Assembly (NCBI RefSeq): GCF_000332095.2
Contig: NZ_KI913949.1
Location: forward strand, 5,131,036-5,170,713
Length of the DNA stretch: 39,678 nt
Origin: Leptolyngbya sp. PCC 6406
GTDB lineage: Bacteria > Cyanobacteriota > Cyanobacteriia > Phormidesmidales > Phormidesmidaceae
Direction: 5' to 3'
Shown in pieces: positions 19,087 to 23,945 of this stretch. The position numbers and the translations under genes are program-made. Below the pieces are notes generated by a model that worked only from the letters and a program-made list of their open reading frames with translations, was not told where the DNA came from and ran no database searches. Position 1 is the first letter of the stretch. Every line of letters starts with the position of its first letter.

Positions 19087-20238
19087 TTAAGCCGCGCAGG
19101 GTAGACAGAGTTCCTGGGCCAAGGCAGTTTCCTGATCCTGGGTAGATTGAATGGCCTGGGCCATGATCTCTGCCACTGTGTAGCCCTGATCATGGAGGCG
19201 TAGCCATCTTTGGGCCTCATTGCCAGAAGCCAATAGGGATTTGAGGGGGGTGAGAAAACAGCTAAAGCCGTGGCGACGGGCAATGGGTAAGAGGGTGGTA
19301 TACAGCTCTTGGATCCAGTCCTGGGCACGGATGGGGTGGCCATCTTGCCAGTGGCGTAGGGTCGCTTCTAGGCTAGAGCGAGCGACGGCCTGTTCATTTG
19401 CGATCGCAATTTCCAGTAAGTCCTCCGCCCGACTCTGGGCCGGGAGCTGACTTTGGAGCAGGGGATCCAGACTCGGATCCGCGATGACCTGAAGCAGCCG
19501 CGCCTCCAACAGGGCCGTAATCGCCAGCAAATGGACCGGATTAGTCACCAAATCACTGATCCGCAGTTCCAAACGATTCAGACCATAGGGGCGGCGATCG
19601 CCATTGGGGCGCACCGAAATCCAGAGATGACGTACATTTTGCATCGTGCCCGCCGCAAGCTGGGCTTCGACCCATTGGATGTGGTGGGCGTGACTTTCAA
19701 ACAGGGGCACCTGCTGGGGCGTTTGGGGAAACAGATGCCAGCGGGTGGAATGGTACCCCGTCACTGCCCCATCGAGAAAGGGAGAGGCAGCGGTCATCGC
19801 CAAATAGAGGGGAGCTTCCAGACGAATCAGACGGCAGGCCCGCATCAGCACCTCTGGATCCGCCAGACCTACATTGATGTGAATGCTGGCGGTGACCACA
19901 TCTGTGCCGTAGGTCTGCTCAATATAGGTGTGGTAGGGGTTTTGCGGATCAGAACGGTAGAACTTCTGGGTGTCTCCCAGGGAAAGGGTGCTGCCGGGAA
20001 CCAGGGTGTAGTTCCCCAGTTGCTTAAGGTAGGCGCGGAGGTCTTGGCGCGGACGCACCAGTTCGCACAGCAATTGCTCATAGCGATGGAGGGGGGCGGT
20101 GGTGTACTCGACATTGCGGTTGTCGGGCTCTCGGACAAAACCGTTGAGGTTCGCCACAATGCGATCGGAAAATCCTACGATCTGTCCCGCTGGGGTGCCA
20201 GTGTAGATCTCGACTTCAAAACCTTTGGATAGGGACAC
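19087..20238 (-). CDS. gshA: Glutamate-cysteine ligase, cyanobacterial type
   Basis: It catalyses ATP-dependent joining of glutamate and cysteine to gamma-glutamylcysteine, the first step of glutathione synthesis. The 383-residue length and motifs fit the cyanobacterial/GCS2-like group: GFEVEIYTG at the N-terminus, PDNRNVEYTTAP near 38, TASIHINVGLAD near 116 and NRLELRISDLVTNP near 220. The start codon is GTG at 20238 (GTG TCC CTA). trmL follows on the same strand after about 200 bp. Confidence 0.93.
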   Translation of the reverse strand: MSLSKGFEVEIYTGTPAGQIVGFSDRIVANLNGFVREPDNRNVEYTTAPLHRYEQLLCELVRPRQDLRAYLKQLGNYTLVPGSTLSLGDTQKFYRSDPQNPYHTYIEQTYGTDVVTASIHINVGLADPEVLMRACRLIRLEAPLYLAMTAASPFLDGAVTGYHSTRWHLFPQTPQQVPLFESHAHHIQWVEAQLAAGTMQNVRHLWISVRPNGDRRPYGLNRLELRISDLVTNPVHLLAITALLEARLLQVIADPSLDPLLQSQLPAQSRAEDLLEIAIANEQAVARSSLEATLRHWQDGHPIRAQDWIQELYTTLLPIARRHGFSCFLTPLKSLLASGNEAQRWLRLHDQGYTVAEIMAQAIQSTQDQETALAQELCLPCAA

Positions 20239-20337
20239 GGCACGCCTCGCAAGACAACTCTTCCCATCATATCGGTGGGCTTGCCCTGCAAGCCTTCAGC
20301 CCCATGCGCTGCACAGCATCTGCCGCACAGCATCTAT

Positions 20338-20364
20338 ATATATGCGATATATGCGATATATGCG
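20338..20364. repeat. Three tandem copies of ATATATGCG
   Basis: A perfect 9-bp tandem repeat of three units in the promoter-side region upstream of gshA. It is possibly a phase-variable or AT-rich upstream element; no function is evident. Confidence 0.8.
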
Positions 20365-20474
20365 TGGGATATGGAAATGCAATGGGATATACCATCGCGT
20401 AGACAAGACGCCTACCGCCAGCGTCTAGCGTGCACGACGCAAACAGAGCTGCCTCCATACCGGAGAGGACTAAT

Positions 20475-20679
20475 GTCTACCCCTGTTAAGGTGAACAAAT
20501 GAACTATTCCTTGATATACGGGCGTTTCAGCGATCAGCCCTCAAAATCGGGAATTGCAACCTCGGCTTCGCGGATTTTCTTTCACAGAAGCAAAGTGAAC
20601 CAAGGCTCGTAAACCTTGTTTTCTCGTTGGCCATCACGCCGATCTATTGGTACAAACGCTCACCTTAACAGGGGTAGAC
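20475..20679. mobile_element. 205-bp MITE with perfect 20-bp terminal inverted repeats
   Basis: Both ends carry GTCTACCCCTGTTAAGGTGA in inverted orientation with no mismatch, flanked by the direct repeat TAAT (20471-20474 and 20680-20683). The 165-bp interior has no transposase and no good coding sequence, so it would need a transposase supplied in trans. The wider flank GACTAATGTCT occurs at both ends because the target resembles the element tip. It inserted between gshA and the tRNA-Leu terminator. Confidence 0.8.
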
Positions 20680-20698
20680 TAATGTCTTATCAACTTTG

Positions 20699-20776: not shown

Positions 20777-20795
20777 ATGGTTTAAGAGTGACCGA

Positions 20796-20877
20796 TGCGG
20801 ATGAAAGGACTTGAACCTTCACGTCCGAAGACACTAGAACCTAAATCTAGCGCGTCTACCAATTCCGCCACATCCGC
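20796..20877 (-). tRNA. tRNA-Leu (anticodon UAG)
   Basis: The minus strand gives an 82-base class II tRNA. The acceptor stem GCGGATG pairs with CATCCGC plus discriminator A. The D-arm contains TTGGTAGAC. The anticodon stem CTAGA/TCTAG encloses loop TTTAGGT (anticodon UAG, reading CUA/CUN leucine codons). There is a variable arm (TGTCTTCGGACGT) and a T-arm with GGTTCAAGTCC. The CCA end is not encoded. Confidence 0.97.
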
Positions 20878-21224
20878 ATTTCAGATATCTATAGTATCAA
20901 CAATACTGGACAATATTGATCGATTCCGTGGATTGGATCGATTCCGTGGATGACGTAGATGGCGGCGGTGGATCCGCTGCTGCCCGTCCCTGGAAAGAGA
21001 TTCCCGACCCGAGCGCAACCTTCTGCAAGACTGTCCACCGAATCCAGCAAGGGAAGCGACTACACTATATCTTTAGGGCGTGGTTTGATTGAAACGTCAT
21101 TTGTTGTGCCTCACACAACAGGGAAATGGGGTTCGAGGCAAGCTAAAAGCATATTGGGAGCGCTCCGTGCCCAGCGCCCCCCGCTCGCTCCACTGACGCA
21201 GGTATACGAGGAGACACCAAACGG
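20878..21224 (+). promoter_or_regulatory. dnaK upstream region
   Basis: About 350 bp between tRNA-Leu and dnaK. It holds two direct copies of GATCGATTCCGTGGAT (20918-20933 and 20936-20951) and the dnaK ribosome-binding site GAGGAG at 21208-21213. No CIRCE heat-shock operator (TTAGCACTC-N9-GAGTGCTAA) is present. Confidence 0.5.
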
Positions 21225-23945
21225 ATGGGAAAAGTCGTTGGCATTGACCTAGGCACAACCAACTCAGTAGTTGCGGTCATAGAGGGGGGTAAACCCGTCG
21301 TCATTGCCAATGCTGAGGGGATGCGCACGACCCCATCGGTGGTGGCCTTTAGCAAAGATGGCGAGCGTCTCGTGGGGCAAATGGCCCGCCGCCAAACTGT
21401 GCTAAATCCCCAGAACACCTTCTACGGGGTGAAGCGCTTCCTCGGACGCAAGTACGGCGAATTGTCCCCCGATTCCAAGCGGGTTCCCTACACCATCCGC
21501 CGTGATGATGCCGGAGATGTGCGAATCAAATGTCCCCGGCTGGAAAAGGAATTCGCCCCAGAGGAAGTTTCCTCCATGGTGCTGCGGAAGCTGGCGGAGG
21601 AAGCCAGTCGCTACCTGGGCCAGCCCGTCACCGGGGCCGTGATCACTGTGCCCGCCTATTTCAACGATGCCCAGCGACAGGCAACCCGGAATGCGGGGCG
21701 GATTGCGGGGCTAGAGGTCAAGCGCATCCTGAATGAGCCTACGGCTGCGGCCCTGGCCTATGGTCTGGATCAGCAGTACAACCAGACAGTGCTGGTGTTT
21801 GACCTGGGAGGCGGCACCTTTGACGTATCGGTGCTGGAAGTGGGGGACGGCGTCTTTGAGGTCAAGGCCACTGCTGGCGATACCCAACTCGGGGGCACCA
21901 ATTTTGATACCAAAATTGTGGACTGGTTAGCGGAGCAGTTCCTAGAGAGCGAGGGAACCGACCTCCGCCGCGATCGCCAATCCCTACAAAGACTGACCGA
22001 AGCAGCGGAAAAGGCCAAAATCGAGCTGTCAGGGGTGAATGTCACCGACATCAACTTGCCCTTCATCACTGCCACCGCCGACGGGCCAAAGCATATCGAA
22101 ACCCGGCTGACCCGGCTCCAGTTTGAAGGACTCTGCGGCGATCTTCTCAGTCGTCTGCGGGGACCGTTGAAGCAGGCCCTGAACGATGCGGGGATGATTC
22201 CAGATCAGATCGATGAGGTGGTGCTGGTGGGGGGGGGTAGCCGTATGCCCATGGTGCAGGAACTGGTGCGATCGCTCATTCGCCGCGAGCCCAACCAAAA
22301 CGTCAACCCCGATGAAGTCGTGGCAGTGGGGGCCGCGATCCAAGCCGCCATTTTGAATGAAGAAATCCGAGACATTCTGCTGCTGGATGTCACCCCCCTG
22401 TCTCTGGGGCTGGAAACCATCGGTGGTGTGATGAAAAAGGTGCTGCCCCGCAACACCACGATTCCCGTGCGGCGCTCGGACATTTTCTCCACCTCGGAAA
22501 ATAACCAGACCATGGTGGAGGTCCACGTGCTCCAGGGGGAGCGGGAAATGGTGTCTGACAATAAATCCCTAGGGCGGTTTAAGCTCATGGGCATTCCCCC
22601 CGCCCCTCGGGGGGTACCCCAGGTCCAGGTGTCCTTCGATATTGACGCCAACGGCATTTTGCAAGTCTCCGCCATGGACCGCACCACAGGGCGGGAGCAG
22701 AGCCTCACGATTCAGGGAGCCTCGACCCTGGCAGAGGATGAGGTGCAGCGCATGATTCAGGAGGCGGAGGAGTTTGCCGATACCGATCGTCTCAAGCGAG
22801 AGCGGGTGGAAAAGCGCAACCGAGCCGAAGCCCTTACCTACCAGGCGGAGCGGGTGCTGCGGGAAGTGGTGCTGGACTTTGGGATGCAGTTTGGCCGCGA
22901 TCGCCGTCGTCGCATCGAGCGCCTGATTCAAGAACTGCGGGAATGTCTGGAAAAAGGGGATGAGCGGGGCATCGACATCACCCAAGGGGAACTCCAGGAC
23001 GAGGTGTACGAACTCAACCGGGAAGCCTATCTCTACGAAGATGAAGAGGAGGAAGACCTGCTGGGGCAAATTGGTGGCACCCTACGCCGTACCTTTGGAG
23101 GCGGTGGCAACCGGGCCGATGATACTTGGAACCGTCCCTCGGCCTGGGAGGATAATGCCTGGGACTATGATGCCCCCCGCTATGGCAGTCCCCGCCCCAA
23201 TTCCTATCCCGAGGACTACTACAGCCGTCCGCGATCGGATGGTTACGGCAATACGCCCCCCCGCTATCGGGAAGAGTCCTACCGAGGGCCATCCCGGCCT
23301 CCGGCACCCAGTTATGGGAATGACCCTTACCGGGAACCGTCCCAGCCTCCGGCACCCAGTTATGGGAATGACCCTTACCGGGAACCGTCCCAGCCTCCGG
23401 CACCCAGTTACGGGAATGACCCTTACCGGGAACCGTCCCAGCCTCCGGCACCCAGTTATGGGCGGGATCGCTATCGGGAGCCATCCCGTCCCGCCGCTGT
23501 ACCGGATGGGGCCGATTCCTATAATCCTGGCCCCAGATTTTCCGGCTCTCGGGGTCGGGGAGAAACCACGGGCAATATGCCGCCCTCGGGGGATCGCTAT
23601 CCTAGGGAACCCCGCCGTCGGGAAGGGGCTACGCCTGTGCGCCGAGACTATCGCCCCGATTCGGCCTATGGGGATAATCTGGCTACTCCCATGGAAGATC
23701 CCTGGACCAATGGCAATGGCCCAGGAGAGGGCTATTCTACCCCGCCGCCTCAGGGCGATCTGGGACAACGGCCCCGGAGTCGCGATGGCCAGAGGCCGGT
23801 CAAAGACCATCGCAGTGACAACCAACCGCCTGTGCGGGATCCCTATCCCCCAGTCTCACCACGGGATCAGCCTAGCCGTCCTACCAGCCGCCCTGGGGGA
23901 TCCTACGACGATGACAACTGGGGGGATGAGGATGAGTGGTTTTAG
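21225..23945 (+). CDS. dnaK: DnaK chaperone, DnaK3-like, with long disordered tail
   Basis: An Hsp70 chaperone. The ATPase domain covers about 1-380 ([13 protein letters not shown] at the start, [18 protein letters not shown]). The substrate domain follows at about 385-510 ([19 protein letters not shown]) and then a helical lid. Unlike ordinary DnaK (about 635 residues), it continues from about residue 620 to 906 with a Pro/Ser/Arg/Tyr/Asp-rich, probably disordered tail. The tail includes four tandem 16-residue repeats. The insertion-like segment [22 protein letters not shown], the extended C-terminus and an adjacent dnaJ match the cyanobacterial DnaK3 type, reported to associate with membranes. 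ATG 21225 has GAGGAG upstream. The 5' flank lacks CIRCE. Confidence 0.93.
23289..23480 (+). repeat. Four tandem 48-bp repeats inside dnaK
   Basis: The in-frame unit encodes PS(R/Q)[13 protein letters not shown] four times, and a fifth, degenerate copy begins at 23481 ([10 protein letters not shown]). Copies 1-3 are almost identical at the DNA level, implying recent duplication and possible length variation between strains. Confidence 0.92.

Follow-up and report, generated by a model that had tools for sequence, protein, structure and literature searches.

The intergenic DNA beside a tRNA-Leu gene of Leptolyngbya sp. PCC 6406 contains a short stretch with inverted ends, which raises the question of what kind of element it is, where exactly it begins and ends, and which enzyme moved it there. 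In the window (the whole stretch of 39,678 nucleotides that was analysed) the sequence GTCTACCCCTGTTAAGGTGA occurs at 20475-20494 on the plus strand and at 20660-20679 on the minus strand with 0 mismatches, and 0 such matches are expected in shuffled sequence. An earlier note, made from the window alone, took these "perfect 20-bp ends" for the termini of a 205-bp non-autonomous MITE flanked by a 4-bp TAAT duplication. We searched the whole 5.78-Mb genome that holds the window (three contigs) with the 20-mer, allowing up to 3 mismatches, and found 13 matching ends. Their outer three bases differ from copy to copy (GAC, CGC, CTC, GGG, GAG, CAC, CAG, TAA, TAC, TCC), and TACCCCTGTYAAGGTGA is constant, except that the second copy of the MITE shows single changes in it. 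It follows that the true terminal inverted repeat is 17 bp long and that the element measures 199 bp (Table 1). The inverted repeat is thus real, free of mismatches and far above chance, but it is three bases shorter at each end than had been proposed.

The outer GTC/GAC of the 20-bp repeat is part of the target site duplication, which is 10 bp long and present on both flanks, and the sequence around the element reads AGAG-GACTAATGTC-TACCCCTG...CAGGGGTA-GACTAATGTC-TTAT. Because the ends of the duplication, GAC and GTC, are complementary to each other, the inverted repeat appears 3 bp longer on each side, and the TAAT that is left, which is only the middle of the duplication, resembles a 4-bp duplication. 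That TAAT is itself a 4-bp duplication, of the length given for the IS701 family (PMC2266710), is ruled out by the variation of the outer three bases among the copies. The repeated flanks GACTAATGTCT, which had seemed puzzling, are explained by the 10-bp duplication and one T that matches by chance, and the suggested insertion next to an older end becomes superfluous, since the duplication accounts for the flanks. Complementary ends of a target duplication can therefore create the appearance of a longer inverted repeat and a shorter duplication.

Table 1. The element, its boundaries and its neighbours (positions in the window)
Feature	Positions	Strand	Remarks
MITE, non-coding, 199 bp	20478..20676	+	97.5% identical to second copy; ends common to four complete IS
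Left terminal inverted repeat, 17 bp, TACCCCTGTTAAGGTGA	20478..20494	+	Perfect inverse of 20660-20676; outer bases variable
Right terminal inverted repeat, 17 bp, TACCCCTGTTAAGGTGA	20660..20676	-	Inverse of left end
Target site duplication, left, GACTAATGTC	20468..20477	+	Same as 20677-20686; like 10-12-bp duplications elsewhere
Target site duplication, right, GACTAATGTC	20677..20686	+	Same as 20468-20477
tRNA-Leu, neighbour outside element	20794..20878	-	ARAGORN and Rfam RF00005; about 115 bp away
383-aa ORF, neighbour gene outside element	19087..20238	-	ORF list; adjoins tRNA-Leu also in G010, G061 and G062

The 13 ends resolve into two 199-bp elements, three of 1486 bp and one of 510 bp, and the left-over end belongs to a fourth 1486-bp element, so that the genome search for ends, full IS and copy number proposed in the earlier note yields two copies of the MITE and four complete IS. 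The second MITE copy (G000:C1:3819064-3819262) lies within an 11-bp duplication of its own (GGATCTACGGG). The four 1486-bp IS (starts 315218, 2910897, 4983804 and 4569597) do not differ by a single base, are presumably recent, and are flanked by duplications of 10, 10, 10 and 12 bp (GCGCTAACAC, CTGCTACCTC, GTAGGTTGAC and CCGACACCGGAG). One of their termini agrees with the MITE end at all 17 positions, the other at 16 of 17; beyond the 17 bp the likeness is modest (11/16 on the left, 9/16 on the right).

The element is well below the limit of about 500 bp that is usual for MITEs, has perfect terminal inverted repeats and a target duplication on both sides, carries no transposase gene, occurs in more than one copy at unrelated sites (two in this genome, more in other genera of the family) and shares its ends with autonomous elements of the same genome. 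The common ends, the agreement in duplication, the separate duplication around the second copy and the presence of four IS that are intact and identical all speak for an IS4-driven MITE, although a total of two copies in the genome is few for a MITE and counts against this reading. We conclude that, very probably, the 199-bp element is a MITE and the transposase of the resident 1486-bp IS4-type element brought it to its present site. We infer that the mover was this transposase and not that of a lost relative, and that movement was by cut-and-paste as in other IS4 elements: the transposase would recognise the shared 17-bp ends together with some subterminal bases, excise the element and join it into the target with a 10-12-bp stagger, and repair would leave the duplication. 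The earlier note is supported as to the kind of element, and was wrong as to its boundary and the length of its duplication.

The history of the element was followed in 63 genomes of the family to which the source belongs. Relatives of the whole 199 bp or of large parts of it were found in G024 (92% and 74%), G029, G004, G055 and G052, which belong to other genera of this family; they are 71-92% identical and mostly of similar length, and the MITE interiors align with each other but match no IS interior. Intact duplications at other sites flank L031 (CTATTGAGCC), L033 (ATGTAAAGAC) and L044 (GCAGTGCCCACC), with lengths of 10, 10 and 12 bp. This divergence with mostly conserved length indicates that the MITE family is old. 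A wider search of 386 genomes from the whole phylum yielded no match over the full length beyond the family; the matches obtained there were of end size or due to chance, and one of them (L153 in G297) proved to mark the terminus of a 203-bp element whose ends are partly degenerate. A search of a plasmid collection gave no match.

In G024, G029 and G052, which are draft genomes, no match to the transposase was detected. Together with the lack of similarity between the MITE interior and the resident IS, this would fit a mover from another IS with ends of this family that has since disappeared, the resident IS being related to it only through the ancestry of its ends. We regard such a lost mover as unlikely, since the ends of the resident IS match so closely and the duplication length agrees; besides, IS copies break contigs in draft assemblies.

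A recent origin of the element by internal deletion of the resident IS would also account for the shared ends, and the genome does hold one derivative of this type. It is the 510-bp copy (L025, G000:C1:4176344-4176853), which retains bases 1-169 and about 1140-1486 of the IS, is 97% identical to the intact copies, has no target duplication and contains a short fused reading frame. However, positions 34-166 of the MITE show no similarity to the IS interiors tested (best E 0.33), which speaks against this origin and for an end-sharing MITE, and the diverged relatives of mostly similar length in other genera argue for an old MITE family; we therefore consider a recent deletion very improbable.

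The absence of coding capacity claimed in the earlier note holds, as the ORF list contains no ORF of at least 60 aa within the element and its longest stop-free frame has 57 codons. Its plus strand folds better than shuffled sequences (z -6.1) and some interior base pairs vary on both sides, as would be expected of a conserved, non-mobile RNA structure or a regulatory hairpin with the 17-bp repeat at its borders. Yet the predicted fold consists mostly of the terminal repeat, a feature of every element of this type, and covariation contributes little (-1.84 kcal/mol). No Rfam family except tRNA is matched, and the copies lie at unrelated sites with duplications; for these reasons we regard this explanation as very unlikely. 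A scan around the element revealed no promoter-like site, and two weak terminator-like matches lie inside it. There is no indication of a host function, and nothing suggests a role beyond transposition.

The element lies between the tRNA-Leu, beside which it had been placed correctly, and the 383-aa ORF, which we take to be a gshA-like gene because it resembles cyanobacterial glutamate-cysteine ligase; the start of this gene is about 240 bp away, with the element upstream of it. A short tandem run of ATATATGCG-like units is located just upstream of the same gene (20336-20366). On the other side, a DnaK-like ORF of 906 aa (21225-23945), unusually long for DnaK, ends in an extended C-terminal tail built of repeats rich in Pro, Tyr and Gly.

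The order gshA-like gene, tRNA-Leu, dnaK is kept in three relatives (G010, G061 and G062), where the ends of the element are absent and the gap between the first two genes is about 160-200 bp, compared with 555 bp here, of which 209 bp are the element plus one duplicate. The outcome named in the earlier note as contrary to a MITE, a single copy with no related IS and a site occupied in all relatives, thus did not occur. The proposed comparison with empty sites succeeded in part: the three syntenic relatives lack the element, but the joined flanks gave no match and no exact empty site among 29 dnaK-region loci of relatives (two of the same genus), because the intergenic DNA is unalignable even with the nearest species.

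For the target, we pooled 17 non-redundant insertions of MITEs and IS, distant IS included, that carry a 10-12-bp duplication. When the arms that flank the duplication are read outward, 25 of 34 have T as the second base and 24 of 34 have A as the third, so that there appears to be a preference for YTA. The right arm in the window (TTAT) fits it and the left arm (CTCT) fits partly. The target preference suggested earlier thus seems to exist, but in these arms and not in GAC/GTC.

The product of the partner IS (457 aa) matches Pfam DDE_Tnp_1 (PF01609, E 2e-10) and NCBIfam NF033592 (IS4 family) with 115.3 bits, barely above the cut-off of 115. In the IS4 family the duplications measure about 10 bp and the YREK motif is complete, and the emerging families IS701, ISH3 and IS1634 have duplications of 4-6 bp, 4 bp in IS701 (De Palmenaer et al. 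2008, PMC2266710). The partner IS encodes a single-ORF DDE transposase of IS4 type, but its Y(2)R(3)E(6)K motif is incomplete: in YLERWTVEKMFQVVT Y, R and E are correctly spaced and K is replaced by T, as also in the three relatives read. Its ends (TACCCCTGTTAAGG) fit none of the end consensus sequences of the subgroups in PMC2266710. By profile and duplication length it would be classified as IS4-related, and not as a strict member by the 2008 definition.

Relatives of the transposase with 74-79% identity are present in Leptolyngbya, Phormidesmis, Shackletoniella and other cyanobacterial genomes, and those with about 39-46% identity in Cupriavidus, Gemmataceae and myxobacteria; those of Cupriavidus have CACCCCTTTCAAGGTGA as their ends and are flanked by 11-bp duplications. 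G015 (L131, L147) contains at least 11 full-length copies of more distant relatives (about 49-50% identity), which form two sets of equal score and suggest a recent expansion; the two copies read carry 11-bp duplications. It is possible, though we propose it tentatively and at somewhat less than even chances, that we are dealing with an old MITE lineage with its own conserved interior, distributed across one cyanobacterial family, which persists in several species where no autonomous partner can be detected and is carried by an IS4-like branch with a YRE-T motif outside the published subgroups.

The element itself is an ordinary example of a well-known kind, to which it is added as a new member, and such a clean pair of MITE and partner IS in a cyanobacterium is useful for annotation and may serve as a transposition system. 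It resembles other prokaryotic MITEs such as the cyanobacterial Nezha (Zhou et al. 2008, listed in PMC10969869) in being short and non-coding, with terminal inverted repeats, a target duplication and more than one copy, a likeness in general features; IS4 does not appear in the text of that review of prokaryotic MITEs. The partner IS differs from the IS4 family of PMC2266710 in the last residue of the motif and in its ends, but agrees with it in having one ORF within 1486 bp, a DDE_Tnp_1 domain, 10-12-bp duplications and 5'-NA ends, and, as is reported there for some elements of subgroup IS4, it seems to favour certain bases in the arms that flank the duplication.
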